Part shown: positions 6,138 to 48,315 of the stretch, in pieces
Numbering within the stretch: position 1 is the stretch's first letter
Layout: every line of letters starts with the position of its first letter
Assembly (NCBI GenBank): GCA_937928045.1
Contig: CALFWO010000021.1
Span: 1-64,000, forward strand
DNA: 64,000 nucleotides
Direction: 5' to 3'
Source of the DNA: an uncultured Saprospiraceae bacterium
GTDB lineage: Bacteria > Bacteroidota > Bacteroidia > Chitinophagales > Saprospiraceae
The notes under the pieces: model-generated
What the model saw: the letters and a program-made list of their open reading frames with translations, nothing else
What the model was told of the DNA's origin: nothing
Database searches by the model: none
Position numbers and translations under genes: made by a program

Positions 6138-6158
6138 AGGAGAGATTTGATTCTCTAG

Positions 6159-6533
6159 TGGAACTGCCGGGATTTGAACCCGGGTCCAGAGAAAGCTTTT
6201 CTGGGCTTTCTACATGCTTAGATATTACTTAAATTTTCGAAATATAAATTGGCGTAAAATCAAACCGGCTATATTCTTATTCTCTAAATTTTCGATCAAA
6301 TAGCCGAGACGACTCTATTCAACTTATCCCGAGGGTTTGGTAATGCGTAGACAGCTGTGTATCGGGTATCAAGCTATGAACACAATGGTGTTTAAGATCT
6401 AATCTTAAGCAGCCATACGGTAACTTTCGTTGCCATTTATAGTTGTTTGCGTTTCCTTTTTTACGAGAGTCATACGCTTGTCTCGGCATGCTTACGTCAA
6501 AAACAACGATCCTGTCGATTCCAGAACAGTCCC
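6159..6533 (-). ncRNA. ssrA: tmRNA (transfer-messenger RNA)
   Basis: This RNA rescues stalled ribosomes by adding a degradation tag. The 5' end GGGACTG pairs over 7 bp with CAGTTCC at the 3' end (one G-U), followed by discriminator A. The genome does not encode CCA. The T-arm (GGGTTCAAATCCC) and the 5' signature TGGAATCGACAGG are both present. The tag reading frame lies at 6434-6405 and reads GNESYRMAA then TAA, assuming the resume codon is GGC. The last residues AA match tmRNA tags in general; the order Y-x-M-A-A resembles tags of Bacteroidota relatives. A terminator follows directly. Confidence 0.93.
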
Positions 6534-30745: not shown

Positions 30746-31444
30746 TCAAACTGGTACCTTAATATCATTCAATACAGCAATAAAATCACCTATTTGTAAA
30801 TAATCACTCATCACATGAGAAGCGCCAGCATCCAATAATTGCTGATGATCCCCTTTAATTTTGATACCTAGCAGCGGCAAATTCATTTCTCTACAGGTCT
30901 TTACATCCCAAAGGGCATCACCGATGTATACTATTCTCTTCCATAGATCTCCCCTATTTTTGCAAGCCTCTATGGCAGTTGAAATAATGTCAATTCTTGT
31001 AGGCTGCTCATCTGCAGCACTTAAGACCAAATCTTCGTACCACAATCCAACATGTTTAAGCTTTACTGTGGCTGGCGCATGCCAGCCCCCAGTTGCCACA
31101 CCAAAGGGAATTTTATTTTCTTTCAAATAGTCAAAAACCGCTTCGGCACCAGGGACAATCTTGAAAGCTTCTGGTGTTTCAATACGGGCCCTTTTAATTT
31201 TATTCACAAATAATTTGCAAAAACGATGTATTTCAGAAAGCTCAGGATAAACGCCGTGTAACTGACAATAAGCTTCTGAAAAAATTGTATGATCAGTCAC
31301 ATGACTGAAATAATTCCAATCTATAGTAGGAAATTTTGCTCCATACTGCTCGCTAAATGTTTCAGAGAAGCACTTGCTATCTATTTTCTCTGAGAAAAGT
31401 AATGTTCCATCGATATCAAATAAAACTAAAGTATCTTTAATCAT
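30746..31444 (-). CDS. HAD-superfamily phosphatase
   Basis: 232 residues with motif I LFDIDGTLLFS (both Asp), motif II FGVATGGW (Thr), Lys in KLKHVGLW and motif IV YIGDALWDVKTC. The helical cap between residues about 15 and 90 is of the phosphoglycolate phosphatase/beta-phosphoglucomutase kind. It should dephosphorylate a small metabolite in the cytosol; the substrate cannot be read from the sequence. Its start overlaps the end of dinB by 4 bp (ATGA), so the two are translationally coupled in one operon. Confidence 0.85.
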   Translation of the reverse strand: MIKDTLVLFDIDGTLLFSEKIDSKCFSETFSEQYGAKFPTIDWNYFSHVTDHTIFSEAYCQLHGVYPELSEIHRFCKLFVNKIKRARIETPEAFKIVPGAEAVFDYLKENKIPFGVATGGWHAPATVKLKHVGLWYEDLVLSAADEQPTRIDIISTAIEACKNRGDLWKRIVYIGDALWDVKTCREMNLPLLGIKIKGDHQQLLDAGASHVMSDYLQIGDFIAVLNDIKVPV

Positions 31445-32514
31445 TTTAAATCTAATTTAAGTTGAATTCCAGCTCCTTGATGCTCCTTTTCTAAGTTGCT
31501 CACTGATAAGCCAATTAGTCGTATACTGCCGGCTTCTTTCCAATGATCTGCTACCAATTGGTTTGCAATTTCTTTAAAGGTTGGGAGATCGCGAATTTCA
31601 TTATTAAACGTCCGTGACCTTGAGATAGTTTGAAAATCAGATTTCTTCATTTTCAATGTCAATGTTCGACCATAATTTTCGATTTTCTCCATGTAGCTAA
31701 AAACGCGATCTATTATTGGTGCTAATGCTTTTAGCATTTCTTCCAACTTGTCAATGTCATTGGAAAATGTATTTTCTGCACCGATCGATTTACGGATACG
31801 ATTGGGATTTACAGGACGATCATCTTGGGCTCGAACAATCCGATAATAATACGCACCCATTTTGCCAAACTTTTGGCCCATTTCGATTTTGGAAAATTGC
31901 TTAAGATCTGCTCCTGTTTCAATTCCCATACGATGCATTTTTTCTGCCGTGACCTTTCCAACTCCAAAGAATTTCTTAACGGGTAATTGTTCAACAAATT
32001 TTACTGCATCATCAGGCATTATAACTTTTAGCCCATTTGGCTTATTAATATCTGAGGCAACTTTAGCTAAAAACTTATTGATAGAAACACCGGCTGACGC
32101 AGTAAGCTGAGTTCGCTCCCAAATCTTTTGTCTAATTTCCATTGCTATTTTTATGGCAGATGCTATCTGTTTTTTGTTGATAGTTACATCAAGAAAGGCT
32201 TCATCTAAGGATAATGGTTCTACCAAATCGGTATATTCAAAAAATATCTCGCGAATCTGAGCACTGACTTCTTTATAAACATCAAAGCGATGTTTAGTAA
32301 AAATTAAATTGGGACATAATCTGGCTGCAGTAATTGATGGCATAGCTGATCTTACTCCGTAGGCTCTAGCTTCATAGCTGGCTGCGGCCACAACTCCCCT
32401 TTTGGCACTGCCACCAACAGCGACAGGTTTACCACGAAGTTCGGGGTTGTCTCTTTGCTCGACCGAAGCAAAGAATGCATCCATATCTATATGTATAATT
32501 TTGCGGTGAACCAT
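31441..32514 (-). CDS. dinB: DNA polymerase IV
   Basis: The error-prone Y-family polymerase for lesion bypass. 357 residues, usual length. Palm motif HIDMDAFFASVEQ (residues 8-20), GVRSAMP, the second catalytic motif SLDEAFLDV (about 103), and LPVKKFFGVGKVTAEKM of the thumb helix-hairpin-helix are intact. The C-terminal little-finger domain is present, but there is no obvious extra beta-clamp peptide at the very end (GIQLKLDLK may serve). It is first in a two-gene operon with the HAD phosphatase; a terminator hairpin and RNA candidate sit immediately upstream. Confidence 0.95.
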   Translation of the reverse strand: MVHRKIIHIDMDAFFASVEQRDNPELRGKPVAVGGSAKRGVVAAASYEARAYGVRSAMPSITAARLCPNLIFTKHRFDVYKEVSAQIREIFFEYTDLVEPLSLDEAFLDVTINKKQIASAIKIAMEIRQKIWERTQLTASAGVSINKFLAKVASDINKPNGLKVIMPDDAVKFVEQLPVKKFFGVGKVTAEKMHRMGIETGADLKQFSKIEMGQKFGKMGAYYYRIVRAQDDRPVNPNRIRKSIGAENTFSNDIDKLEEMLKALAPIIDRVFSYMEKIENYGRTLTLKMKKSDFQTISRSRTFNNEIRDLPTFKEIANQLVADHWKEAGSIRLIGLSVSNLEKEHQGAGIQLKLDLK

Positions 32515-32522
32515 ACTTACAT

Positions 32523-32557
32523 AAAAAACCAGCGAACGAGTTTAAGCGTCCGCTGGT
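32523..32557 (-). terminator. Rho-independent terminator immediately upstream of dinB
   Basis: On the minus strand ACCAGCGGACG pairs with CGTTCGCTGGT over 11 bp (one G-T) around an 8-base loop, followed by six T residues. The T-run ends 9 bp before the dinB ATG. Confidence 0.88.
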
Positions 32558-32696
32558 CATACGGTTTTTGGGATGGAAACTGGAGTTTCAGCATTTTCCA
32601 ATGCTATCCTCAATACCTGGTATAGTTCCATCTTCCTTTTTACCAGGCTGTCTCAGGAGTTATTTCTTAGATCGGTTTTGAGATATTTAACTCCGG
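32523..32696 (-). ncRNA. Candidate structured RNA or dinB leader ending at the terminator
   Basis: This stretch has no ORF but many nested complements on the minus strand. There is a possible three-way junction, 32572-32632, closed by GATGGAACT/AGTTTCCATC (one bulge). One arm inside is AGCATT-GGAA-AATGCT (32590-32605) and another is ATAC-CAG-GTAT. Outside it, CCTGGTA (32647-32641) could instead pair with TACCAGG (32622-32616), and GGAGTTA with TAACTCC (32694-32656). Competing pairings and a closing terminator are the pattern of an attenuator or riboswitch, but a free small RNA is equally possible. I do not recognise a known class. Confidence 0.5.
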
Positions 32697-32882
32697 TAAT
32701 CCAAAGAAACAAATTTTTGATCATAACCGGTAATATGTAAAGGATTAATAATCATACATTAAGACCAAAATGACTAAAAATTCTGGCCAAATTTAGAGCC
32801 TATAGATGTTATTAGACTTTAGTTTATCACAAAAAATAGCTTTCTTACTTTCCTTTGAGAGGATAATTAAAAATAGAATAAA

Positions 32883-33176
32883 ATGTCAGGTGGAGATTGG
32901 AAAGCCATGTTTAAAGGAATTCAAGAAAACGACTTGGAACTTGTTAGGTTCTATTTGAATTCAGGCATTGATCCAAATTATCAACATCCTGAATATATGG
33001 CTTTGCCACTGTCTGAGTGTATTCGATATGATCATTTAAAAATAGCAGCGTTGTTACTTCAAAAAGGAGCTAATCCATCCATTATAGAAATGGAATCTGG
33101 AGTGACCTCATTAGAAAATGCGAAGAAATTAGACAAAAATAACTTCGTAAAATTGATTGAGCAATTTACAAAATAG
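32883..33176 (+). CDS. Small ankyrin-repeat protein
   Basis: 97 residues with about two ankyrin units: NDLELVRFYLNSGIDPNYQHPEYMALPLSECIRYDHLKIAALLLQKGANPSI shows the L..LL..GADPN pattern twice. No signal peptide. Such proteins mediate protein-protein contacts in the cytosol. It is a single gene between the dinB leader and a bidirectional terminator. Confidence 0.8.
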   Translation: MSGGDWKAMFKGIQENDLELVRFYLNSGIDPNYQHPEYMALPLSECIRYDHLKIAALLLQKGANPSIIEMESGVTSLENAKKLDKNNFVKLIEQFTK

Positions 33177-33193
33177 TCTTACCTAAAGGCATT

Positions 33194-33234
33194 AAAAAAA
33201 GTCCTATTGCTAAATAGAGCAATAGGACTTTTTT
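33194..33234. terminator. Bidirectional terminator between ankyrin and PorP/SprF genes
   Basis: Perfect stem AAAAGTCCTATTGCT/AGCAATAGGACTTTT with a 6-base loop, A-run on one side and T-run on the other. It serves the ankyrin gene (plus) and the PorP/SprF gene (minus). Confidence 0.93.
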
Positions 33235-33255
33235 CCAAACTACAATAAATAAAGA

Positions 33256-34272
33256 TTAGAAATATCTGGGCGTTGCCACTTTCTTTGTGTTGTAGACAAA
33301 ATCGTATCCCAGCATTACTTCATAAGTGCCTTTGGTAAAATCATTTAGTTCACTTAAAGTATAATCATAGCTAATTCCTACGCGCATTCCGTTCTTCAAA
33401 TTATAAGAAGCCCAAATATCTGCTGAGTCAAAAGAACTTTTTCCACCAAAAGCTTTTGCCGCTATTGCAGATCGAAATGAAGCTCCAACCCACAATGCTT
33501 GGTAGAATAAAAAACTAATATCAATATCAAATTCCGCAGGAGCGCCTATCTTTTGAGGATCTTTTATATTTGTATTAAAATCACCAAGAAGTCCGACAGA
33601 TTTTAACAATATTGATGGTTTAAAAACAATGATATCTCCTTTAACTGGTATTACACCTCCAGCTGTAAAATAATAATGCCGATATGTTCTTGCCCATTCA
33701 GCAGAAGTGATCTGATCCACTCTTCTCAAATCAAACCCAAGCAATCTTGGAACTGAAATACCTAAATAGAATTTCTGAGTGGAATAATACATTCCTGCTC
33801 CAAAATTTGGGAACCATCTATTATAACCAAGATCTTCAAAAACTTCATCGTTGGCTGCAGGATCTTTATATCTCAAATTAGAAAAGTCTGATCTCCAATT
33901 CATCACACCGGCTTGAAGACCAATGGATAAATTTCCTTCTCCAAAAGGAACTTTATAAGCGTAAACACCATTCAAAATCGTAGAACCTGAAGAACCGATC
34001 TGATCATTTCCTACACTAAGGCCGACACCTACTCTTTTCTTCCAAGGGCTGTGAATGGTAAAAGTTTGTGATAATGGGCCACCATCAATTCCTAGCCATT
34101 GCTGTCTGTGCAAAACTCTCGTTGACATATAGCCTAAGCTACCGGCATATCCAGGATTGGTTGCCATACTATTGAACATATACTTCGTATACATTGGCTC
34201 TTGCTGAGCGCTCATTTGAGTGATTCCTGCAAAAAAGCAGAAGCATAAAATAAGCCGTGTTGTTCTTTTCAT
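33256..34272 (-). CDS. PorP/SprF family type IX secretion-associated membrane protein
   Basis: The ATG at 34272 (MKRTTRLILCF) is chosen over a TTG two codons upstream. The 338 residues open with a signal peptide ending at SAQ, then QEPMYTKYMFNSMATNPGYAGS, the strongly conserved N-terminus of PorP/SprF proteins. Alternating beta-strands suggest an outer-membrane barrel of about 14 strands. SprF works with SprB-type adhesins and is needed to secrete or hold them on the cell surface. Here it lies directly downstream of the 4,565-residue adhesin gene on the same strand, the usual pair order. Confidence 0.93.
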   Translation of the reverse strand: MKRTTRLILCFCFFAGITQMSAQQEPMYTKYMFNSMATNPGYAGSLGYMSTRVLHRQQWLGIDGGPLSQTFTIHSPWKKRVGVGLSVGNDQIGSSGSTILNGVYAYKVPFGEGNLSIGLQAGVMNWRSDFSNLRYKDPAANDEVFEDLGYNRWFPNFGAGMYYSTQKFYLGISVPRLLGFDLRRVDQITSAEWARTYRHYYFTAGGVIPVKGDIIVFKPSILLKSVGLLGDFNTNIKDPQKIGAPAEFDIDISFLFYQALWVGASFRSAIAAKAFGGKSSFDSADIWASYNLKNGMRVGISYDYTLSELNDFTKGTYEVMLGYDFVYNTKKVATPRYF

Positions 34273-34617
34273 CTTCAATTCATGTGCTGTTTAATAAATA
34301 CCAATACACCTGACTATTTTTTCTAATTAGTCATGGTAGGTGTGTTGATTTATTACAGTTAGGAAGTAGGATACCTAAGAATTATTCAAAAATCATGCCT
34401 TTGGCTAGGAAAAGTTGACTTCTTTGTGTTAAAAAAAGTTGATTGTAATTAAAGCGCCGGAACTGGCTGAATACTAAACTTTTAAACATAGTTTGAAAAC
34501 TTAATATGGAGTATATATTTTAAATAGAAAAGCCCTTTAAAATTGATAAAGCTTAGAATTTCTAATCCTTATCAACCTCAAAGAGCTTCTCTTAGGTCCT
34601 ATATTAAATACGCCTTT
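34273..34617 (-). other. Gap between giant adhesin and PorP/SprF genes, with two hairpins
   Basis: No ORF. At 34543-34575 (minus) TTGATAA and TTATCAA enclose TTAGA-TCTAA, a weak terminator-like hairpin just after the adhesin stop. At about 34301-34345 CAATACACCT and AGGTGTGTTG (one G-T) with inner GACTA/TAGTC form a second hairpin ahead of the PorP gene. Whether PorP is expressed from the adhesin promoter is open. Confidence 0.5.
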
Positions 34618-37600
34618 CTAGCGGTGTATCTGAACATATCCACTGAAGGTATTCCCTTCTCCATCCTCCACTACATAGAAGTAAGTTCCGTCTGGAAGAT
34701 CTTTTCCATCAAATGTTCCTCTCCATCCTCGATCATTGGTATATCCTTTCTCATTATGTACTTGACTTCCCCATCTGTTGAATACACAAACTTGATTGTT
34801 CGGGAAGCTTTCTATTCCGAGAATTGTAAATACATCATTGATGTTGTCATTATTTGGCGAAAATCCTGAGAAAATAATCAGCTCTTGGCACAATACCTCA
34901 ATAGTAACTGTTGCAACGTCCGTTCCAAATTCATTAGAAATTGAATACATGAAACTGTCCGTTCCTCCACAGAAGGTTGGGTTCGGAGTATAAGTAACTG
35001 TGCCATCAGGGTTGATGATTACTGTTCCGTTTTGTGGTCCTCCGATAATTTCAAAACCTTCTAAACTACCATTTATTGTATCATTTAATAATATCTCTAT
35101 AACTACTGGACTTCCTATTGTAGTTGTAGTATCATCATTAATAGCTACTGGAATTAAATTGGTGAATACATCGAAGAAAATTGTAGTTGTATCACATACT
35201 TGATTTGCGTCACAGATTACAAAACACGCAGTATCCTGACCAACGGTTGATCCTGTATAGAAAATACAATTTGTAGTCGGATCAACAATGATATCTGCAT
35301 TTTCTCCTACTGATTCTGGACAAATATTAATAATAGATTGAATCGGTCCACTTAGTTCAGAATCATCCAAGCAAATTGTGTCAGTCGTTCCTACTAAGAT
35401 TGGCAATGTTAAAGTATCCAAGCTCGGTACTAGAACATTCACTATTAAAACAGTTGTATCACAAAATCCAAGGCTATCACAAATAACCAAACATGCTGTA
35501 TCTTGACCAATCAAGTCTCCAGTGAAATCTACACAATAAGTTTCTAAGTCAAGATTAAAGTCAACACTAAGGTTAAATGGATTCGAACAATCATTTATGA
35601 ATACATCCATTGCATTCTGGAAAATTGTCGTGTCTAAACATAGTGTCTCAGTCAATCCAAGATTTACGATTTCATAAATCGTATCAGTAACAGGAACTAC
35701 TGCTATCTCAATATTAACTGTTTCACAAATTCCTGTAATCGTATCACAAGCAGTCAAACAATATTGATCACTTCCTAAAAGTAATCCATCGATAGCGATA
35801 CAATTAGAATTTGGAATTAAAGAGATTCCAGTATTTCCATCGTTTTCATCAAGACAGTCGTTAACAATACTATTAACAACACTTAAATCAAAACAGAAAG
35901 TATCTACTGTTCCAACCTGAACACTTATCAAAGTATCAACCACGACTGGCGGATCAACACAGGTCACATCTAAATCAATCTCTTGCACACAACCGTCAAC
36001 CATGTTTTGTACTATTAGATTGTGATTACCTTCTGATAAATAAATAATTGTAGCATCCGGAATTATTTGGTTAGGAACTTCAAACTGTGGAACAGAATTC
36101 GCAGATATGAATAACGATCCGTAATCGCTTCCGCCATTACCACCAACAATTACAAAACCAAACACTTCCCAATTCCCAGTAGGATCCCAAACATTCATCG
36201 AATCCGCTAGTTGCTGCGTAGATGTGAATAAACCTAGTGTATATGTTTGACCGTTCGCTTGCCATTCATCTAAAGTATAAGCTCCTGGAGCTCCAAGCTG
36301 GAAGGCTACATATTGATATTGCGTATCTATAACACATACATCAAAGGCTCCATCATATGCTGCACCATTATCAGTGATTTGATAATCAAATAAATCGCCA
36401 ATTTCGAAATCCAAACACACCGGAGCTCCTTCTTGACAATCTTCAGCAACCAAATCTGTTGGTCCTGTATAGAATGGATCACAATTAGACTGATCAGGTA
36501 ATATTGATAAAACAATTACTGTTGTATCACATGCTGGGATATTATTGTTACAAAGAATTACAGTAACTGTATCTATGAACATTCCTGTTTCTCCTGGATT
36601 TGGAATGTACCTGTAACACTCTCCACTAGTAATGAAGAATACACCATTGTCGGCATTCGAATTCGTCGTCGAACCTGTAACTACTCCGCCGATATCATCA
36701 ATATTCAAGCATGAATCCAATGTAACATCTATATCAGTACTTACATAAATTGTATCAAGCATTGGGTTGCTCATCGGAGCCTCAATAATTGAGAATGAGA
36801 TACATGTTGTATCTGAATTAGTTCCGTCAAATGCAATAATGCAAATTTGATCAACATTCATTCCTGCTACTCCTTGCGCACTGTAGGTTAAACAACCCGC
36901 AGCATCCAATTGCCAATTTGCAAAACTTGACGAACCGTTCATCATGCCATCTCCTAAAACAAAACTTACTTGATTTGGATCGAAGCATGATTCTAGATCG
37001 AAGCAGTATTGATCATCACTGTTCAATTCCAACTCAATTGCTGTAAAGTCTGGCTGTCCACAATCGACACAATCATCTGCTATTTCAATATTTTGGACTT
37101 CAACAATACATCCATTTACGTCGGTTACCGTTAAACTATACGATCCCACAGTTAATCCAGTACGGTCTCGAATATTATCATTTCCAGTAAGATCTGCCCA
37201 ATTGTAAATATAACTTGGCTCACCACCAGTCGTAACAACTAAGATAGATCCCCCATCGTCACAGCTCGCCGCAGTAATTGCAACATCTAATTTCAATTCT
37301 TCAGCATCTACCACTTCGAATGCCAATGTATTCGCTAAACAACCGTTCACATCTGAAACCAGTAATGTATAATCTCCTGCGCTTAAAGTTCCATTATTTA
37401 TTTCATTCCCGTTAATATCTTCGATAGTAACTTGGGCCGGTCCTTCAAAAGAAGCCGAAGGTACAAGTGAGAAATCTATTTCAATATTAGAATCTCCTGC
37501 ACAGTTCGTATTCAATGGTAAAATATCATTCACCAAAATTTGAATATCACCTTCCACTTCTCCAACCAATCCGAAAGAATAGGTAAAGCTACATCCTGTA

Positions 37601-40600
37601 GTTTGATCAGTAATTTCAACGGAATAAGAACCATCAGAAAGATCTGACCTTAGTTGGCTTGTAGTACCATCTTCCCATAGATAAGTGTAGTTACTTGATC
37701 CTCCGAGAACATTGATAATTACCTCGCCATTGTTAGATCCACAATCAGGTGCATTTATAACTTGCGCATTTGCTTCCAAGTTATTTTGCTCCAATATTTC
37801 AATTGCTTGAACATTTGAACAACCCGTAGCAGGATCCGTAATGGTAACAAAGCAATTACCTGCAGGTAAATTGGAAGGATTAAAATCCGTTACTCCATTA
37901 CACCATTCGTAGATCAAATTAAATGGAGACATTACCGCTGTACCATTATTCATTCCACATTGTGCAGGGGCAGATTGTATTAAGTTCGCTTGAGGTCCAT
38001 CAGCATTTTCAACAACAACAATTTGAGAAATTGAACATTGATTATCATTTTTATCTTCAATTACAATCTCATAGGCTCCGGCAGGAAGATTTGCAAATAC
38101 ATTTTCATTTGCATTTCCTAGGTTTGGAATTAAATTATAAACATAATCTGTATTGCTTCCAACCATTTCGATTTGAATTGCACCTGTCGCCAATCCACAG
38201 TTTGATTCAATAACTACAATATTCGAAACTACCGGCTCATCACAATTCGAAGTCAAACAAGCGTTATTTACTTGGATTTGATCGATTCTTAAATCACAAC
38301 CAGCCGCGTCAGAAATGATTAATTCATAAATGCCTTCCTCAATATCAAATCTATCTTGAACATTATCAGCACCACTTATATCAGCCCAATCAAAAGTATA
38401 GTCTGCTGTTCCTCCTGTGATTTCTACATCAATTTGAGATTCTTGATCACAAGTTTCGTCCAAGACGCCAATATTAATCTTTAATGCTGTTGCCTCGTTG
38501 ATTGCAAATGCTAAATTACCAGCGACACATCCATTAGCATCTTCCACTAACATGAAGTAATCACCAGGTGCCAAGCTGTCTTCATCAACCAAATCACCAG
38601 TTCTATTGATAACCAATGTTGTTGCAGGGCTTACAAAGTTTGGTTCCAAATTATAAGTAAAAGCAACGGAACCATTGTTCAATCCAACACAGGATTCATT
38701 CTCCAAATTTTGCAATGATAATTCTGCTCCAGATACATCGTTGTTTAATACAAATATTAACTCCTTTTCACAACCATTATCATTATCAGTAACCAGTACT
38801 GTATGAAGTCCTTGGCTCAATTCATCTCTCGTTGATTCAGATTGCGCGAACAGTCCATCCCATAGGAAAGAGTAATTCCCAGAACCATTTTCTACGTTAA
38901 TCTTTACTTCTCCATTTTCAACATCACAATCAGGTGCAACTAAGGTTTCTGCAGAAAGTGTCAATGGAACAGAAGAACCTACTTCTACTTCAATGATATC
39001 AGCACATGGTGGAACATTTCCATCCAAAACAACAACATAGTATTTACCTGGAGCCAAATCTGAACGACTGTTTCCTGTGAAATTATCGAATTCCCAAACG
39101 TATGTGTTTGATGTTGGTAAAAACGAGACTGAACCATCTGCAGCTTCACAGTTCGCATCTGTAACAAGAAGATCTTCTACAATAGGTCCTCCGATTGTTC
39201 CAACAACAACTGAAACTACTGTTTTGCAATCTGTAAAATTGTTGTTTGAAACTTCCACTTCATAAATTCCTGGAGCTAAGCCAGATCGCTTATTTCCAAT
39301 TCCATTAGGAGTTCCATTAATTGTGGACCAAGCATAAGAAAAGTTAGCAGGGTTCCCGACTGGAATAACTTCTGCTGAACCATCTAAGAATCCACAATGT
39401 GCTTCAAAAACAACGATATCACTGATTAATGGTTCTGTACATGTGCAGCTTCCACCAATCGATACTGTTACGCTAGTGGTACATCCCTCAGGTGAAGTTC
39501 CTTGAACGGTATAAGTTCCTTCTTTAAGATCATTTCTTATAGCCCCCGTACCGCCATCGCTCCAATCAAAATCATATGTAGCTGGACTTAAGCTTGCTAA
39601 ACCATCCTCATTGCCACAATTTTCGTCAGCTGTACTTAGCACATCAATGCTTGGTGAAGTCACAACGAAAGAGGCTCCGGTAACATCTAGGTTTCCACAG
39701 ATTGTTCCTGCGCCTTGAGTTAATAAATTGTAAACATCAAAACCAGTGGTTTGACCAATTTGCACAATAGATAAATCTAAAGTTGATGGATCGTAAACCA
39801 AAGTATGAATGGTATAATTTCCTTCAACTGAGATTTCAAATGATGGCACATCTTTTACATCAACTATTGTCAAATCTGACCCACTCGTTAGAACAAAAAT
39901 TGTTTCAAATCCCGCAGGAATAACCGCATCTCCATTAGCGATGGCCGTTATTATTGCTGCTCCTTGATCTAAGCAAGCATTATCATTTGCCTGATCCAAT
40001 GTTCCCGCAAAAGCATCGCATTGACAAGCATCTATAATTTCTAAATCTTGAATCTCAATTGTACATCCAATTTCGTCAGAGACAATTACATCATAACTTC
40101 CTGGAACCAAATCGTCGCGTTCTGCAGGATTATTTGAACCAGGTAGATCAGCCCAATCAAATGTAATTGTTCCTGTCCCACCGAATGCACCTACTGAAAT
40201 TGAGCCTAGCACTCCGCATTCTTGAGGAAAAATGCTAAAGTCTGCAGTTAGTTGTTCTCCAACAATTACATTCACTGTTAAAGTACTAGTGCATGTACCG
40301 TTGGAAATATTTACAATATAATCTCCAGCGTCAGCTATGGTTGCATTTGGAATAATAGGATTCTGTTCACTTGAAGTAAACCCATTTGGACCAGTCCACT
40401 CATAAGCCGTGCCGCCTTCAGCAGTTAACTCAATAGTTTCATTATAACATAAAGGAGAATTTGCATTCGCAGATCCATTTGCAGGATCTTCTACAACTAT
40501 TTGAGATTTTAGAATAGCTTGGCATCCGTTGTCATCAGAAACTACAACCTGTATGATATAAGTTCCTGCTGATTGGGAAGAAAAGATTGCACTTGCATTA

Positions 40601-43600
40601 TTGGGGACCACGGTACCTCCAGTAACATCCCAAGTATATGTGTAACCAGAACCTTGAGCAATTACATTGAACTCAGTTTCCTCACCCGCACAAATGTTGG
40701 CTTGAGAAGGAGTTAACGATGCGCTCAATTGGCTAAGAACGGTAATGGTCTGAGTATGACTTGCTACATTACCGCAAGCATCTCTTGTTCTCCATGTTCT
40801 GATAATTAAATTTCCGCAGTTCCCTAGCGGCTCTTCTGATTCTTCAAAATCCAAACCGGGATTTGTATCACATTCGTCAATAGCTACGACAGATTCCGCA
40901 GCTGGTACTTGTTCTCCTACGCCCAGATCAACAGTAAGATCTGTGGGCATTGGAGAAAGCACAGGAGCTTCGTTATCTACTACTTCTATTATTTGACTTT
41001 CACTAGACTGATTTCCACAATCGTCAGTTGCAGTCCAGGTTCTTGTGATCGTATAATTTCCGATACAGCTTCCTGGTTCATTCGTTTCTAAAAATTGAAC
41101 AGTTACAATATCTTGACATCCATCAGTAGCAGTAACGTTCGCAGGAGCTGGAACTTGACCGCAGAACGTTGACATATCACTAGGTACGCCTGATAAAACA
41201 GGATCAACATCATCGGTAACCTCAATATTCTGATGCTCGGTATTCGTGTTTCCACAGGCATCAATTGCCGTCCATGTTCTTTTCAAGGTGTAAGTATTCG
41301 GACAGTTGCCTGGAATTACTTCTTCGTTGAATTCCAAAATAGCATTTTGATCACAATTATCGGTAATGGTAACAGTTGGCAATGTAATATTATCATCACT
41401 TCCACAAGTATAAAATTCATCAGCTGGCACTCCTGAAATAACAGGGGCAATGTTGTCTGAAACCGTAATTTCTTGTGACTCCGTCGCTTGATTACCACAA
41501 GCATCTGTCGCCGTCCATGTTCTTATTATTACATAATTAAATGTACATGAGCCAGGTTGAATTATTTCAAGAAAATCAGCCTCAAAAGTACCACCACAAT
41601 CATCACTGGCCATCAAAGTAACCGCGGAAGGAATATTATTACAATCAACAGTCACATCCGCAGGAGCAGATTCTAATGAAGGATCCAAATCATCTCCAAC
41701 CTCAATTCTTTGTTCTTCCGAAGTAGTATTTCCGCATTCGTCAGTAGCTGTCCAAGTTCTTACAATTGTATAAGAGAATTCACAAGCCCCTGGGATAATA
41801 TTTTCTAAAAAGTCTACTTGAATATTAGCTGTACAATTATCTTCTGCTTCGACGTTAGGAACTACCACAGGCAGGGCTCCACATGACACATTCACATCTG
41901 TAGGAACTCCAATTAAAATTGGATCTTGTACGTCACTAACGAATATTTTTTGCTGTTCGACTGTTTGATTTCCACATTCGTCAGTTGCCGTCCATACTCG
42001 ATTTATTAAATATTCATTCGAGCAACCTCCCTCAATAACAGTTTCCAAATAATCGACAGCAATGTTCGCTGTACAATTATCCGCTGCAGTAATATCAGTA
42101 CCAACAATTGGAGCATCAGGTACATTATTACAATCGACTTCTAGATCCGCTGGGACTCCAAAAATCTCTGGTGCAATATCATCGACAACAGTGATCTCTT
42201 GATTATTTGTTGAAGTATTTCCGCAAGCATCAGTTGCCGTCCATGTTAATCTCAGAACAAATCCATTTACACAAGTCGATTCTAAAGTTTCTTCTAAAAA
42301 CGCTACTTGAATATTATCAGTACAATTATCTGTGGCCGTTACTACGTTTGAATCGTATCCTGTATAATCTTCACATGAAACCGTTACATCAGCAGGAACT
42401 CCAAATAATTGTGGTCTTTGATCATCTTTCACGGTGATTAACTGAGATTCACTTGTACTATTTCCACAGGCATCAGTCGCTGTCCAGGTTAATTTCAATT
42501 CAAAAGTATTTTCACATTCCTGAGAAAGGACTTCCTCCAAGAATACAACTTGAATTGCATCAGTACAATTATCTGTTACAGTAACAACATCAGCGTCATA
42601 ACCAGTATATTGATCACATGACAAGGTTACATCAGACGGTACTCCGTTTAATATTGGAGCCTCTTCGTCAGAAACTGTAATCAGTTGTGATTCGCTTGTA
42701 CTATTTCCGCAAGCATCGGTTGCTGTCCATGTCAACTTTAATTCAAAAGTATTTTCACAAGTTTGAGACAACAATTCTTCCAAAAATTCAACTTGAATAT
42801 TATCTGTACAGTTGTCTGTGGCTGTTACTACATTAGGATTATAACCTGTGTATTGCTCACATGAAATATTTACATCCGATGGTACTCCGTTTAATACTGG
42901 AGCTTCTTCATCAGTAACCGTTATCAATTGTGATTCGCTTGTACTATTTCCGCAAGCATCGGTTGCTGTCCATGTCAACTTTAATTCAAAAGTATTTTCA
43001 CAAGTTTGAGACAATACTTCTTCCAAAAATTCAACTTGAATATTATCTGTACAGTTGTCTGTGGCCGTTACTACATCGGGATCATAACCTGCGTATTGCT
43101 CACATGAAATATTTACATCCGATGGTACTCCGTTTAATACTGGAGTTTCTTCATCAGTAACTGTAATCAGTTGTGATTCGCTTGTACTATTTCCGCAAGC
43201 ATCGGTTGCAGTCCATGTTAATTTTAATTCAAATGTATTTTCACAAGTTTGAGACAATACTTCCTCCAAAAATTCAACTTGAATTCCAGCTGTACAATTA
43301 TCTTCCGCTGTTACATTTGGAGTAACATAGTTGGCATATTCTTGGCAAGTCAAAACAACATCTCCGGGAACGCCAATCAATGTTGGATCAGAATCATCAA
43401 TTACATTAATTATTTGTGATTCGCTAGTTGAGTTTCCACATTCATCTGTTGCAGTCCAAGTTAGTTTTAATGTAAATGTATTATCACAAGTTTGACTAAT
43501 TGTTTCTTGAACAAAATCCACAACAATGTTATCGGTGCAATCATCTCCAGCAGAAACTACGGGAATTTGATAGCCTTGAAAGTCTTCGCAACTTAAATCC

Positions 43601-46600
43601 AAATCTGCAGGAACACCAGTTAATTCTGGGTCCTCGTTATCTTCTACCTTAATTCTTTGTGTACCAACTTCTTGATTTCCACATTCGTCAGCAACTGTCC
43701 ATGTCCTTACAATTACATAATCATTAGCGCATGATCCCTGTTCCACAACTTCACCGTAAACTACATCAAGATCAATTGTACAATTATCTTCCGCAGTAAC
43801 ATTAACAACAGCTGGAATTTGATCACAGCTGACTGTTATGTCTGCAGGAACATTATTTAGCTGAGGCAAACTATTATCTTGTACGACAATTCTTTGTTCT
43901 TGAACTTCATTATTTCCACAAGCATCGGTTGCAGTCCATGTTCTTACTAAGGTATACTCATTAAGACATGTTCCGTCAATTCTAATTTCAGAAAAAACTA
44001 AGTTGGCTTCGTCATCGCAGTCATCCAATACTTCAGGGTCAACTGGAGCAGGAACTTCGGCGCAGTCAATTGTGATATCCGCCGGTACTCCTGTTATAGA
44101 AGGCGCTATATTGTCAACAACAGTTATTGTTTGAATTACTACTAAACTATTTCCTGAGTCATCAGTCGCTTCCCACGTTCTAATAATTTCATAGTCATAT
44201 GCTCCGCAATCGTTTCCGGCTACTTGAGTAGATGTTTCCGTAAAGACAATTACAACATCTTGATCCAAATTATCTTCAGCAAAAATTTCAGTATATAATG
44301 CTGGCACGTCAGGTACATCTGCGCAACTTACTGTGGTGTCTACTGGCACACCCACCAAAACAGGATCGGTAGCATCAATAAACCCGGCGTCAATATCAAA
44401 AATATCATCCCCTGAATTCAAGGTAATAACTTCAGTCATTCCAGTAGCAGGATCAATATCCGAATCAGATGCCGAGTCTCCAATATTAGGAATTGTAACC
44501 TCTAATCCAATTGGAGTTAAAGGATATTCAAAAGTTAATTTATAATTTCCCGGAAGTAAATTATCGAATAAGTAAAAACCATTTGCATCGGTGGTCATGG
44601 TTAAATTAACGACTTGGCCTAAACCATTAGTTCCTGTCAAGGTAACCATTACCCCGCTCAAAGGACTTTCATCAACATCTTGAGTTCCATTTTTATTGAT
44701 ATCAATCCAAACATAGTCTCCAATTTTTCCAGTTTGGTACAGACCAGCATCAATATCATCAATATTATCTCCTGGATTCAAAGAAAATAATTCAGTCATG
44801 AAATTAGAAGGATCAAAATCCGAATCTATAGCATCATTTCCTCCAACATTCAATGCCGACAAATCAAAATCAGCAGGCAGGTTCAAAGTTATTTTATATT
44901 CCCCTGGAAGTAGGCCATCAAAGCTATAATTTCCATTATCGTCAGTTGTAACATTTCTTGTTATTACTGTTCCATTCGATGCTATTCCCGTAAGTATTAG
45001 TTCAACATTAGGAAATCCAGTTTCGCCTGCATCATACACTCCATTTCCATTTAAATCTAGCCATACTTGATCACCTACTTTAGCGGGATCTTCTAATGTT
45101 ACAGAAGCTGAACAGTTACATCCATTTTCATCCGCTACTACCACTTCATAAGTCCCTGCCGACAGGTTTTCTATACTTTCCGTCGTACCGCCATTTGACC
45201 ATTGATAAGTAATATTTCCTGTTCCACCTGCCACAGTAATTGAAGCAGCTCCGTCGCTGCCACCCTGAGAAGAAATTGTAACCCCTTCAAAATAGTTTGA
45301 ATTAATATTTGCATTACAAGTTAGCGCTTCAGGTTCATCAATCTGAAGACTTGTGGACTTCTGACATCCATTCGCATCGATTACTTCGACTGTATAATTT
45401 CCTGGTGCTAGGTCCGCAATAATTTGAGTATTCTCTCCATTCGACCAATTTATTGTATAAGGTGCTAATGCTCCTGTTATAATTACTTGCGCGCGCGCAT
45501 CATTTGCACCTGTACAAGAAATACTAGCTCCGTTATAATCAGAAATTACCAAAGCTTCGATTTCTAAATCAGTAGGCTCAGTTACTGTTATTGATTTCTC
45601 AATAGAACAACCATTTTCATCTACCACTAACAATGTATAAGTTCCCGCCGTCAATTCATCAATATTAACGGAAGAAGATCCATTGCTCCAAGTATAGGTC
45701 AATGTTCCAGTTCCACCTGAAGCAAATGCAGTAATTGCAGCATCATTTTGTCCAAAACAAGAAATATTAAATCCATTAAAATCTGTAGTCACTGTCAAAT
45801 CTAAAGTCAAAGGATTTGGCTCATCAATACTAACCGTTCTTACGAAAGAACATCCATTGGCATCTTCAACAGTAACGGTATAAGATCCAGGTCCAAGATT
45901 TTCAATAGTAGCTGTAGTTCCACCATTTGACCAATTATAAATATAAGGCACCGTTCCACCTGAAGCATTGATGCTTAAAATTCCATCTTCAGCTCCCGAA
46001 CAAGAAATAAAAGCTCCATTGTAATTTGCAACGACATCAATTTCTTCTGCTGTAAATTCGGCTGGTTCTTCAACTGAAATGTTTGCATTTACGATACAAC
46101 CATTGGCATCTGCAACTTGTACTTCATAAGTTCCTGGTGCTAGATTATTCAAGGCTTCAGCGTTTGAGAAATTTCCAGAAGCTCCCCATTGATAAATATA
46201 TGGTGCAGTTCCTCCAGAAGCAATAACTCGGATAGATGCATCATTGGCTCCACTACAGCTAATAGGAGAACCATTGTAATCTGAAGTAAATTCTATAATA
46301 GCAGTCACTGGTTGAGGTTCATCAATCGTAACAGAAGCTGCAGTGGCAGTACAACCAAAGCGATCTGATACAGTTACTTCATATGTTCCCGGTGCGATAT
46401 CACTTACGATCTGTCCAGTCTCTCCATTGCTCCAAGTGTATGTAAACGGTGGAACACCTCCACTAATTAAAGCTTGTAATCTACCATCAGCTGCTCCATT
46501 ACAACTAATACGAGACCCGTTGTAATCAGAAATAATTTCTGAGGAAAGTGCGATATCCGAATCATCACATGTTTTACACTCTGGATTTGCCTTTACCGCT

Positions 46601-48315
46601 CCAGAATAAACCAAAGATTGGCCATTCGGTGTAGTCGCTGTTTCAAATGGTGACTCTACACAAATTTCAATTTCATCTTCTAAAGGCGCGACTCCCTCTA
46701 ATACCAATTTAGCAATGTACAAAGCATCACCTTGATTTACATCGTTAATAATTACTTCAGCATTAATTGATGGATTGTCAACAACTTCTGCTCTAACAAT
46801 AGCTATTCTGCCATCTGTTGTAATTTCTGAAAGTGGAACTTCAATTTCTACATCTCTTGTTGCAGGCGCAGTTGGAATTTCTAAAGTTTCACAATGAGTA
46901 TCATGATAAATCCATGTCTGAACGAACTGTCCTGTGCTAGCTGTAGTCTGTCCACCTTCACGGAAAACATACAAGATCAAAGACTGAGCTTGACAAGCAT
47001 TTGGAATATGTTCTAAAGTTATCTGGCTTGCAGGTCCAAATGTAGTTCTAAAATAAAATGCTCTTGCAGGATTTGTAAATTCTGCCGGAACAATGGCCGT
47101 CTCATTGTCGGTTTTAATCGTCAATTGAGATGGGTTGGCCGATTGTCCTTTATAAACTACCTCAGCTACTATTTGTACCACGTCGTTTGCATTGGGTATA
47201 TTAATATTGTAGCTATTTTGGCATCTAATTCCTTCTCCAATAATTTCAACCGATTGATCATCTTCACAATTCAAAGTCCATCCAGTCGGTGCAGGTTCTC
47301 CGCAGCTTTCGTTGAAATCAATTCTTACGCAATTTGACTCCCCAAAATCAAACGAAGTGCATCCCGCTCTTCTTGCACATCTTCTAAACCAGGTTGTTTG
47401 ATCAATTGGTCCTGGATTATAGTTCGCTTCATTTGCTCCACTAATTACGGTCGCATTTGATTGCTCACAATCGATTGTTGATTTCAACCAGATATATTCA
47501 ATATCTCCTGATCCTCCTGAAGGAAGTGATATTGATGTGATAAGTCCTGGATCGTTCAATCCAAAACATACCGGATTCGGTGCTGCTATTTCTCCACCAT
47601 CTGTAACATTCAAACAAGATGAAAGAGGATCACCGGATAAGTTAATATTAACATCACCCTTTCTTAAGCCATTAGACACATTAAAATCTAAGTGATTATT
47701 ATTTGGTTGACTTTCCACAGTAACTTGAAGCCAACCACTGCCACCAAAGCTACCAGATGGATCAGTGACATTTGCACCATGACCGAGTTGCATTGTTGGA
47801 CCATTTCCAACAAAAGATAGCAATGCACCTTCATAACCATTTGAACCAATTGCCGTTCCTGAGTTTGAAGTATAGTAGTACCAGTCATTTGTATTCATGG
47901 TTGAACACGAATTTTCCTTAGGAGAATTAGCAGGTGTAGAAAAAGTTCTTCCCGAATAATTCATTGACACGTCAAATCTTAAATTACTGTTGTCAACATT
48001 GACAACCTGCATTTCTAAGACCGCCGTTCCATCATCAAATTCAGTAAAGGTTCCATTTGTTGCCCGAAAAGATCTGCTCAAACCATTGAGGTCCAACCAA
48101 AATGCATAATCTAGATTTGAATGACAGCTCTGAGTATTCATAACTGTTCGAGCAGCAACCGTCTCTAACAATGAACTGTTACTGTGATTTTTCTCGGAAA
48201 CGGAAAAGGCCGTAATTCCTAAGAATAGGAATACGACAACAATTGTTTGCAAGAAATTAAGTTTTTGTGAATTCAGTCTTAAAGCTGAATTAAACTTGGG
48301 TGTAAAAATTCCCAT
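34618..48315 (-). CDS. Giant SprB-like surface adhesin, T9SS type B cargo
   Basis: 4,565 residues, the largest gene in the window. A membrane-spanning signal peptide (LQTIVVVFLFLGITAFSVS) is followed by an N-terminal region that also contains a jelly-roll-like module. Residues about 590-1077 are six SprB repeats (GG..PYTY.WSNG...GTYEVTVxDANGC). Residues about 1080-1312 are two SdrD B-type domains (VGDQVWLDLNGNGVYDAGE). Residues about 1313-2527 are fifteen HYR-like domains. Residues 2528-4390 are PKD/Ig- and SprB-like modules. The end has a cadherin-like VAINDDTTTT module and a CHU_C gliding-type sorting domain (FSPNNDNINDVF...NRWG). It should be a surface adhesin for gliding or attachment. 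Confidence 0.93.
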   Translation of the reverse strand: MGIFTPKFNSALRLNSQKLNFLQTIVVVFLFLGITAFSVSEKNHSNSSLLETVAARTVMNTQSCHSNLDYAFWLDLNGLSRSFRATNGTFTEFDDGTAVLEMQVVNVDNSNLRFDVSMNYSGRTFSTPANSPKENSCSTMNTNDWYYYTSNSGTAIGSNGYEGALLSFVGNGPTMQLGHGANVTDPSGSFGGSGWLQVTVESQPNNNHLDFNVSNGLRKGDVNINLSGDPLSSCLNVTDGGEIAAPNPVCFGLNDPGLITSISLPSGGSGDIEYIWLKSTIDCEQSNATVISGANEANYNPGPIDQTTWFRRCARRAGCTSFDFGESNCVRIDFNESCGEPAPTGWTLNCEDDQSVEIIGEGIRCQNSYNINIPNANDVVQIVAEVVYKGQSANPSQLTIKTDNETAIVPAEFTNPARAFYFRTTFGPASQITLEHIPNACQAQSLILYVFREGGQTTASTGQFVQTWIYHDTHCETLEIPTAPATRDVEIEVPLSEITTDGRIAIVRAEVVDNPSINAEVIINDVNQGDALYIAKLVLEGVAPLEDEIEICVESPFETATTPNGQSLVYSGAVKANPECKTCDDSDIALSSEIISDYNGSRISCNGAADGRLQALISGGVPPFTYTWSNGETGQIVSDIAPGTYEVTVSDRFGCTATAASVTIDEPQPVTAIIEFTSDYNGSPISCSGANDASIRVIASGGTAPYIYQWGASGNFSNAEALNNLAPGTYEVQVADANGCIVNANISVEEPAEFTAEEIDVVANYNGAFISCSGAEDGILSINASGGTVPYIYNWSNGGTTATIENLGPGSYTVTVEDANGCSFVRTVSIDEPNPLTLDLTVTTDFNGFNISCFGQNDAAITAFASGGTGTLTYTWSNGSSSVNIDELTAGTYTLLVVDENGCSIEKSITVTEPTDLEIEALVISDYNGASISCTGANDARAQVIITGALAPYTINWSNGENTQIIADLAPGNYTVEVIDANGCQKSTSLQIDEPEALTCNANINSNYFEGVTISSQGGSDGAASITVAGGTGNITYQWSNGGTTESIENLSAGTYEVVVADENGCNCSASVTLEDPAKVGDQVWLDLNGNGVYDAGETGFPNVELILTGIASNGTVITRNVTTDDNGNYSFDGLLPGEYKITLNLPADFDLSALNVGGNDAIDSDFDPSNFMTELFSLNPGDNIDDIDAGLYQTGKIGDYVWIDINKNGTQDVDESPLSGVMVTLTGTNGLGQVVNLTMTTDANGFYLFDNLLPGNYKLTFEYPLTPIGLEVTIPNIGDSASDSDIDPATGMTEVITLNSGDDIFDIDAGFIDATDPVLVGVPVDTTVSCADVPDVPALYTEIFAEDNLDQDVVIVFTETSTQVAGNDCGAYDYEIIRTWEATDDSGNSLVVIQTITVVDNIAPSITGVPADITIDCAEVPAPVDPEVLDDCDDEANLVFSEIRIDGTCLNEYTLVRTWTATDACGNNEVQEQRIVVQDNSLPQLNNVPADITVSCDQIPAVVNVTAEDNCTIDLDVVYGEVVEQGSCANDYVIVRTWTVADECGNQEVGTQRIKVEDNEDPELTGVPADLDLSCEDFQGYQIPVVSAGDDCTDNIVVDFVQETISQTCDNTFTLKLTWTATDECGNSTSESQIINVIDDSDPTLIGVPGDVVLTCQEYANYVTPNVTAEDNCTAGIQVEFLEEVLSQTCENTFELKLTWTATDACGNSTSESQLITVTDEETPVLNGVPSDVNISCEQYAGYDPDVVTATDNCTDNIQVEFLEEVLSQTCENTFELKLTWTATDACGNSTSESQLITVTDEEAPVLNGVPSDVNISCEQYTGYNPNVVTATDNCTDNIQVEFLEELLSQTCENTFELKLTWTATDACGNSTSESQLITVSDEEAPILNGVPSDVTLSCDQYTGYDADVVTVTDNCTDAIQVVFLEEVLSQECENTFELKLTWTATDACGNSTSESQLITVKDDQRPQLFGVPADVTVSCEDYTGYDSNVVTATDNCTDNIQVAFLEETLESTCVNGFVLRLTWTATDACGNTSTNNQEITVVDDIAPEIFGVPADLEVDCNNVPDAPIVGTDITAADNCTANIAVDYLETVIEGGCSNEYLINRVWTATDECGNQTVEQQKIFVSDVQDPILIGVPTDVNVSCGALPVVVPNVEAEDNCTANIQVDFLENIIPGACEFSYTIVRTWTATDECGNTTSEEQRIEVGDDLDPSLESAPADVTVDCNNIPSAVTLMASDDCGGTFEADFLEIIQPGSCTFNYVIIRTWTATDACGNQATESQEITVSDNIAPVISGVPADEFYTCGSDDNITLPTVTITDNCDQNAILEFNEEVIPGNCPNTYTLKRTWTAIDACGNTNTEHQNIEVTDDVDPVLSGVPSDMSTFCGQVPAPANVTATDGCQDIVTVQFLETNEPGSCIGNYTITRTWTATDDCGNQSSESQIIEVVDNEAPVLSPMPTDLTVDLGVGEQVPAAESVVAIDECDTNPGLDFEESEEPLGNCGNLIIRTWRTRDACGNVASHTQTITVLSQLSASLTPSQANICAGEETEFNVIAQGSGYTYTWDVTGGTVVPNNASAIFSSQSAGTYIIQVVVSDDNGCQAILKSQIVVEDPANGSANANSPLCYNETIELTAEGGTAYEWTGPNGFTSSEQNPIIPNATIADAGDYIVNISNGTCTSTLTVNVIVGEQLTADFSIFPQECGVLGSISVGAFGGTGTITFDWADLPGSNNPAERDDLVPGSYDVIVSDEIGCTIEIQDLEIIDACQCDAFAGTLDQANDNACLDQGAAIITAIANGDAVIPAGFETIFVLTSGSDLTIVDVKDVPSFEISVEGNYTIHTLVYDPSTLDLSIVQIGQTTGFDVYNLLTQGAGTICGNLDVTGASFVVTSPSIDVLSTADENCGNEDGLASLSPATYDFDWSDGGTGAIRNDLKEGTYTVQGTSPEGCTTSVTVSIGGSCTCTEPLISDIVVFEAHCGFLDGSAEVIPVGNPANFSYAWSTINGTPNGIGNKRSGLAPGIYEVEVSNNNFTDCKTVVSVVVGTIGGPIVEDLLVTDANCEAADGSVSFLPTSNTYVWEFDNFTGNSRSDLAPGKYYVVVLDGNVPPCADIIEVEVGSSVPLTLSAETLVAPDCDVENGEVKINVENGSGNYSFLWDGLFAQSESTRDELSQGLHTVLVTDNDNGCEKELIFVLNNDVSGAELSLQNLENESCVGLNNGSVAFTYNLEPNFVSPATTLVINRTGDLVDEDSLAPGDYFMLVEDANGCVAGNLAFAINEATALKINIGVLDETCDQESQIDVEITGGTADYTFDWADISGADNVQDRFDIEEGIYELIISDAAGCDLRIDQIQVNNACLTSNCDEPVVSNIVVIESNCGLATGAIQIEMVGSNTDYVYNLIPNLGNANENVFANLPAGAYEIVIEDKNDNQCSISQIVVVENADGPQANLIQSAPAQCGMNNGTAVMSPFNLIYEWCNGVTDFNPSNLPAGNCFVTITDPATGCSNVQAIEILEQNNLEANAQVINAPDCGSNNGEVIINVLGGSSNYTYLWEDGTTSQLRSDLSDGSYSVEITDQTTGCSFTYSFGLVGEVEGDIQILVNDILPLNTNCAGDSNIEIDFSLVPSASFEGPAQVTIEDINGNEINNGTLSAGDYTLLVSDVNGCLANTLAFEVVDAEELKLDVAITAASCDDGGSILVVTTGGEPSYIYNWADLTGNDNIRDRTGLTVGSYSLTVTDVNGCIVEVQNIEIADDCVDCGQPDFTAIELELNSDDQYCFDLESCFDPNQVSFVLGDGMMNGSSSFANWQLDAAGCLTYSAQGVAGMNVDQICIIAFDGTNSDTTCISFSIIEAPMSNPMLDTIYVSTDIDVTLDSCLNIDDIGGVVTGSTTNSNADNGVFFITSGECYRYIPNPGETGMFIDTVTVILCNNNIPACDTTVIVLSILPDQSNCDPFYTGPTDLVAEDCQEGAPVCLDFEIGDLFDYQITDNGAAYDGAFDVCVIDTQYQYVAFQLGAPGAYTLDEWQANGQTYTLGLFTSTQQLADSMNVWDPTGNWEVFGFVIVGGNGGSDYGSLFISANSVPQFEVPNQIIPDATIIYLSEGNHNLIVQNMVDGCVQEIDLDVTCVDPPVVVDTLISVQVGTVDTFCFDLSVVNSIVNDCLDENDGNTGISLIPNSNCIAIDGLLLGSDQYCLTACDTITGICETVNIEIAVVPVTDTIYEIVNLGLTETLCLDTTIFQNAMDVFINDCSNPFNLSVDFNLDLETYCVDFTGDLIGQDTACLVICDSLGFCDTTVLIVNVLVPSLDTLTLPILVGTTDTICLDDSELSGPIQSIINICPESVGENADIIVDPTTNCIFYTGSTVGQDTACFVICDANQVCDTTTIFFDVFTNLIPVAINDDTTTTIGSPVVIEILLNDTINGSLEGFEIIGGPQNGTVIINPDGTVTYTPNPTFCGGTDSFMYSISNEFGTDVATVTIEVLCQELIIFSGFSPNNDNINDVFTILGIESFPNNQVCVFNRWGSQVHNEKGYTNDRGWRGTFDGKDLPDGTYFYVVEDGEGNTFSGYVQIHR
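40735..44380 (-). repeat. Array of fifteen HYR-like domain repeats in the giant adhesin
   Basis: Units of about 81 residues (about 243 bp) each contain GVPxDVxxSC, ATDNCT, TFELKLTWTATDACGNSTSESQ and a conserved D at the joint. Units 5-8 (about 42430-43390) are almost identical in DNA over long stretches, for example TGATTCGCTTGTACTATTTC near 42685, 42925 and 43170. Outer units are diverged. Near-identical inner units suggest recent tandem duplication. Confidence 0.9.
45085..46545 (-). repeat. Six SprB repeats near the N-terminus of the giant adhesin
   Basis: Six units of about 81 residues, each with SDYNGxxISCxGAxDG, GG..PYTY.WSNG, and GTYxVxVxDANGC then a Pro-rich joint (IDEPxxL). These match the SprB repeat family. 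Confidence 0.88.

Follow-up and report, generated by a model that had tools for sequence, protein, structure and literature searches.

A candidate stand-alone small RNA with a conserved unpaired motif and its own terminator beside dinB in a Saprospiraceae-like family

We analysed a region on the minus strand of a 64,000-nucleotide (nt) stretch of DNA from an uncultured Saprospiraceae bacterium, called the window below. The region lies directly upstream of dinB, an error-prone polymerase gene, and an earlier note on this DNA had proposed it as a riboswitch or attenuator of the dinB-HAD operon, naming a stand-alone small RNA as the alternative. Our analysis favoured that alternative. Judged from sequence, the region probably encodes a small non-coding RNA that stands alone, is about 180 nt long, has the same orientation as dinB and stops at an intrinsic terminator of its own. 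G000 denotes the window's genome and G001 and G002 its congeners (together the window genus), and labels of the type g1 to g205 denote genera. The RNA and its neighbours are arranged as follows.

32523..32701, minus strand: proposed small RNA gene, about 180 nt, with the terminator as its 3' end
32523..32558, minus strand: intrinsic terminator, a 12-pair hairpin (32558-32527) and a T-run to 32523, from fold and stem conservation
32561..32574, minus strand: conserved unpaired motif ATCCCAAAAACCGT, the proposed seed (pattern match G000:C21:32523-32574)
31441..32514, minus strand: dinB, a DNA polymerase gene of the IMS family, downstream neighbour, from open reading frame (ORF) and family match
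30746-31444, minus strand: HAD hydrolase gene, overlapping dinB by 4 nt, from ORF and family match
33256..34278, minus strand: porP/sprF-type gene, upstream neighbour on the same strand (PF11751)

The dinB strand of 32523-32701 held no ORF of at least 50 amino acids (aa), as the earlier note had described, and mechanically called ORFs of 56 aa and 55 aa overlapped the region on the opposite strand. The 5' end near 32701 is an estimate, inferred from the onset of good conservation in the G001 alignment. The strong terminator noted before was also found: its 12-pair hairpin had a predicted energy of -19.2 kcal/mol (z -6.5), and none of 200 shuffles was equally stable. Between the end of the T-run (32523) and the ATG of dinB (32514) lie 8 nt, which in G000 leave no room for a promoter; a promoter in this position is what the note had raised as a point against a leader.

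To identify homologues, 60 related genomes were searched with the DNA of the region. The search matched the window itself, G001 (75% over the query) and part of G002; a 22-base match in G019 was taken as chance. The core of the RNA consisted of the unpaired motif (A/U)UCCCAAnAACCGU, with small variants, followed directly by the terminator hairpin. The core pattern ATCCCAAnAACCGT plus a T-run occurred in 16 of 398 family genomes, and the reversed pattern in one of 398. Seven of the 16 (G000, G001, G002, G362, G364, G345 and G410) had a common neighbourhood. The pattern matches in the other nine (G291, G339, G351, G372, G395, G423, G433 on C147, G455 and G592) were not accepted, a judgement made from sequence, with neighbouring ORFs examined for L129 and L141 only. 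We then used a covariance model, R1, built from the seven common-neighbourhood sequences, which matched 66 of the 398 genomes at E ≤0.1, many of them weakly. Eighteen new loci were read and five accepted, namely G494 (42.5 bits), G409 (41.3), G344 (34.8), G505 (33.6) and G519 (29.2), all with the full TTCCCAATAACCGTTT; dinB lay in the same stretch in the first four, and the contig of G519 is short. Matches in G517 (37.5 bits), G531 (34.8) and G561 (35.0) were rejected for their incomplete motif, so that the border of acceptance, at 27-38 bits, rests on judgement.

A second model, R2, drew on nine source sequences from outside the window genus. At E ≤0.02 it matched 15 of 209 genomes of the family, where the scores of its nine sources, including four of the five g185 genomes, hold by construction. 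R2 added G433 (40.4 bits), with porP-RNA-dinB order and the motif TTCCCATAAACCGT. It did not reach E 0.02 in G000 or G001, since no sequence of the window genus had gone into it. Across the phylum, R2 gave weak matches in two of 198 genomes, one outside the family, and none outside the family was accepted. The accepted set thus comprises 13 genomes of seven genera (g1, g203, g205, g186, g185, g17 and g10) in one Saprospiraceae-like family; two further matches, in G339 (C34, 34.8 bits) and G359 (32.5 bits), were regarded as tentative and left out of the count. Twelve of the 14 motif positions were identical across 12 aligned homologs, and G433 differed at further positions. R1 found a single copy of the RNA in G000.

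The motif by itself was far more widespread. An 18-mer containing it, with up to two mismatches, occurred in at least 127 of 298 genomes of the order; 30 such loci (L012-L041) were fetched and scanned for motif plus T-run, and the two that emerged, L036 and L038, were not accepted. Exact copies of the 18-mer turned up in one stretch of the viral contigs and in 14 of the genome collection, including the two known congeners; the remaining thirteen, when read, showed no likeness past the motif. In L136, L137, L139 and L140 (g10 and g180), the same 14-mer stood in a repeated element, which is tandemly arrayed in L137; there the hairpin and T-run flank the 14-mer on its other side, on the opposite strand.

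The terminator stem was the sole part conserved as structure. In alignment A3 (MAFFT, seven sequences), which came into register only after 3'-end bases of A2 had been trimmed, all 56 stem cells were paired and 17 of them had changed on both sides, and none of 500 shuffles reached either value. When 14 sequences were aligned by R1, an alignment that leans towards the stem, 112 of 112 cells were paired and 26 were two-sided (0/500 shuffles). In alignments A4 and A5 the window-genus rows were out of register. The covariation that the earlier note had looked to for a leader was therefore present, in the terminator stem only, where a stand-alone RNA would show it likewise. G344 and G519 kept the stem with a poor T-run, and from these sequences the hairpin may do more than terminate.

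To assess the tie to dinB, we examined 70 dinB loci, drawn from 88 genomes with dinB at E ≤1e-60; for some of them the upstream DNA is short (only 90 nt for L084 and 170 nt for L094). R1 placed the RNA at four of the 70 (G000, G002, G362 and G364), and R2 agreed. A 19-bit match in L108 was not accepted, and the idea that the RNA is a general dinB element was rejected on this count. The RNA was also present at 5 of 30 porP loci. The order porP-RNA-dinB occurred in six genomes, including G001 and G002, and porP lay upstream of the RNA in eight accepted genomes; in L154 (G336) the dinB start, read by eye, follows porP within 258 nt, and R1 found no RNA between them. In genera g185, g186 and g17 the RNA was kept with other genes between it and dinB. 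These were an opposite-strand gene for a peptidase sorted by the type IX secretion system (T9SS) in G344, an opposite-strand AAA gene in G505, one same-strand metallopeptidase-like gene in G410 and G494, and two same-strand ORFs in G409, the first reprolysin-like. In G345 a metallopeptidase-like gene as in G410 and G494 follows the RNA, and dinB is on another contig. The core was thus kept as a unit whatever gene follows, which supports a stand-alone small RNA.

Metallopeptidase genes, reprolysin-like or of a type we take to be M43, adjoin the RNA in g185 and g186 (L127, L128, L189, L190 and L226), and one RNA-adjoining metallopeptidase of this set carries a T9SS sorting tail.

These contexts bear directly on the proposal of a cis-acting leader (riboswitch or attenuator) of dinB-HAD, in which alternative folds upstream would decide whether the terminator forms. 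Such a leader agrees with RNA and dinB having the same strand and order wherever both were seen, and with the short distance from T-run to dinB start in G000 (8 nt), G002 (3 nt) and G362 (10 nt), all measured to the dinB start used in the alignments. The gap is nevertheless variable (about 69 nt in G001, 65 in G433 and 126 in G364), the RNA is absent from 66 of the 70 dinB loci, a few of which have little upstream DNA, and no riboswitch family was matched. The downstream gene is not constant across relatives. In G344 and G505 an opposite-strand gene follows the RNA, which therefore cannot be a leader there, and same-strand peptidase genes intervene in G410, G494 and G409; a dinB leader would hardly be kept with the intervening genes of g185, g186 and g17.

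The upstream folds on which a leader would depend were examined with the following features of the window.

32590..32605, minus strand: small hairpin AGCATT/AATGCT; G001 and G002 have a hairpin of different sequence at the same place
32616..32647, minus strand: hairpin CCTGG...CCAGG with loop GATGGAA, in the window genus only
32656..32694, minus strand: 5' hairpin GGAGTTA/TAACTCC, whose arms compete with the CTCC preceding the motif
32673-32680, minus strand: second CAAAACCG box inside the 5' hairpin, from a shuffle test

The whole 188-nt dinB-strand stretch folded better than chance (z -4.1, 0/200 shuffles as good), and the opposite strand of the region was also well folded (z -3.7). For the 140-nt part without the terminator the excess was smaller (z -2.4, 1/200 shuffles). 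Its predicted fold in G000 contained the three-way junction described earlier, and the minimum-energy and centroid folds disagreed, in line with the competing pairings noted before; this picture did not extend to the relatives, as the predicted folds of G001 and G002 differed from that of G000 and the upstream part of G344 folded at chance level (z +0.25, 120/200 shuffles). The G001 alignment showed a 3' block, CTCCArTTTCCATCCCAAAAACCGT, preceding the terminator, besides the CCTGG hairpin with a GATGGAA-type loop. By sequence and by the predicted G001 and G002 folds, the loop GATGGAA can pair with TTTCCATC just 5' of the motif. In the window genus this loop and the 5' GGAG are potential competing partners for the block that precedes the motif, which speaks for a leader. 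Evidence for a second motif copy upstream was weak: shuffles were as similar in 26 of 500 trials for G000, 3 for G001, 45 for G002, 39 for G344 and 62 for G409, and in 133-429 of 500 for the remaining six of the 11 tested. A conserved leader peptide, inspected by eye only, was among the ideas tried and rejected. Taken together, a leader of dinB-HAD is unlikely overall, and could apply to the few genomes in which the RNA and dinB nearly touch.

To determine whether the RNA has its own promoter, we used the Bacteroidetes consensus given in PMC7366714, TTTG near -33 and TAnnTTTG near -7. An exact TTTG-N17-20-TATATTTG was present in 4/4 g185 copies, 209-150 nt 5' of the motif, where 4, 2, 4 and 8 of 200 mononucleotide shuffles were as good. 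No site scoring 9 or 10 of 10 was found in G362, G345 or G505, and single 9/10 sites in G364, G410 and G433 were within chance (28-49/200 shuffles). The g185 site would be the RNA's own promoter, and a promoter of the window copy is unproven.

The promoter bears on another explanation, a 3' untranslated region (UTR) element, in which motif and hairpin form the 3' end of the upstream gene's mRNA and are perhaps cleaved off. The absence of a detected promoter in the window genus and the presence of porP upstream in eight accepted genomes agree with it; in G505 a 954-aa upstream ORF stops 12 nt before the motif, and in the tentative G359 the core match starts a few nt past the stop of a porP paralog. 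Against it, porP of the window has a separate hairpin and T-run behind it (33185-33236, identified by eye) and is separated from the RNA by an opposite-strand ankyrin-repeat ORF of 97 aa (32883-33176, plus strand), and the g185 copies have a predicted promoter of their own and stand after a different gene, a fatty acid hydroxylase. We therefore consider a 3' UTR element improbable. The ORF lists of G001 and G002 contain no ankyrin ORF at the corresponding place. Upstream of the porP/sprF-type gene lies a repeat-rich ORF of 4565 aa (34618-48315, minus strand).

Rfam gave one transfer-messenger RNA (tmRNA) and one tRNA in the window, both outside the region; the tmRNA gene lies at 6158-6533 (minus strand), with the tag GNESYRMAA. 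With permissive settings, the region had seven matches up to E 10, all far below gathering scores. The earlier note had recognised no known class, and here too there was no credible Rfam match and no match to 6S or another known RNA. A diverged 6S RNA is very improbable: the length of about 180 nt, the stand-alone gene and a 6S RNA of G000 that is unaccounted for, as no 6S class reaches its cut-off there, speak for it, but no 6S model matches the region at E values of up to 10, the predicted folds of the homologs are not a long rod of closing stem, central bubble and terminal stem, and sub-threshold 6S-Flavo matches sit at another locus in two family members. Among 60 relatives, neither RF00013 (control: 4/14 known genomes matched) nor RF01685 (best sub-threshold matches in G030 and G016) reached its cut-off, and RF01693 did so in none of 11 genomes. 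The two RF01685 (6S-Flavo) matches (L005 1501-1649, minus strand, 38 bits; L006 1501-1635, minus strand, 35 bits; cut-off 85) both adjoin a 358-aa outer-membrane-type ORF of similar sequence. These sites are possibly the 6S RNA of this family, and that of G000 probably lies elsewhere.

Several observations weigh against a stand-alone small RNA. In 11 of 11 loci where both were seen, dinB follows the RNA on the same strand, at most about 6.4 kb away; we take this constant order as ancestral gene order, and a former leader might look the same. In A6 (nine sequences without the window genus), 93.5% of stem cells were paired and covariation was weak, with two-sided changes in four pairs (16/500 shuffles) and five cells (21/500 shuffles). 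Upstream of the motif, the homologs and their predicted folds showed no common structure or conservation between genera and could not be aligned. No promoter site of at least 9/10 was found in G000, G001 or G002, and a covarying terminator marks a transcript end, not a function.

With these points considered, we still favour a stand-alone small RNA; the RNA feature is real, and its proposed nature is plausible and ordinary. Its transcription would run in the direction of dinB and end at its own terminator. In the predicted folds, the best-conserved sequence is largely unpaired and sits directly against the terminator. This placement suggests a seed like those of the Bacteroides small RNAs FopS and GibS; by this analogy the motif beside the hairpin would pair with target mRNAs, and the RNA probably base-pairs with its targets. 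Three motif-antisense sites were found in the window, the RNA's own included, where 1.6 were expected. On this reading dinB is mainly a neighbour, and at a spacing of 3-10 nt (G002, G000 and G362) transcripts that read through the terminator may contribute to dinB expression. A dual-purpose RNA, trans-acting and with a terminator that serves as a regulated gate of dinB-HAD where the two nearly touch, is quite doubtful. If true, mRNAs or a protein binding AUCCCAAnAACCG would also set read-through into the error-prone polymerase, and the mutation rate would be linked to the RNA's regulon. These findings replace the riboswitch guess for the polymerase with a candidate small-RNA family in a Saprospiraceae-like family, for which a core has been defined, gene contexts described and covariance models built.

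A search of the open-licence PubMed Central (PMC) literature found no paper on small RNAs (sRNA) in Saprospiraceae, on 6S RNA in Saprospira or on a dinB riboswitch in Bacteroidetes. Among known systems, 6S RNA (RF00013, RF01685 and RF01693) is alike in being stand-alone and of similar length, and unlike in that the RNA here matches no 6S model and is not predicted to form a rod with a central bubble. RsaE-type C-rich small RNAs of Firmicutes carry an unpaired UCCC-containing motif as a possible seed; the motif here is similar, in a different phylum, and the likeness is by description only. No family of the FopS or GibS type was among the Rfam matches, where coverage of FopS by Rfam 15 is uncertain.

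Closer to the present case are FopS and GibS of Bacteroides thetaiotaomicron, described in PMC11697453 and PMC7366714, which are also small RNAs of Bacteroidetes, where no obvious Hfq or ProQ homologue is known. As described there, they share with our RNA an unpaired conserved stretch followed by a terminator hairpin, a likeness of architecture only. The FopS seed differs in sequence and sits at the 5' end of FopS, whereas here the proposed seed lies beside the terminator, and FopS is given 14 paralogs, compared with the one copy that R1 found in G000. Rfp18 of Flavobacterium, as presented in PMC9723704, is likewise a conserved stand-alone Bacteroidetes RNA. Secreted metalloproteases are among the targets predicted for Rfp18, and metallopeptidase genes adjoin the RNA here in g185 and g186; for our RNA the protease link is one of gene neighbourhood only, and Rfp18 was compared by description, not by sequence.
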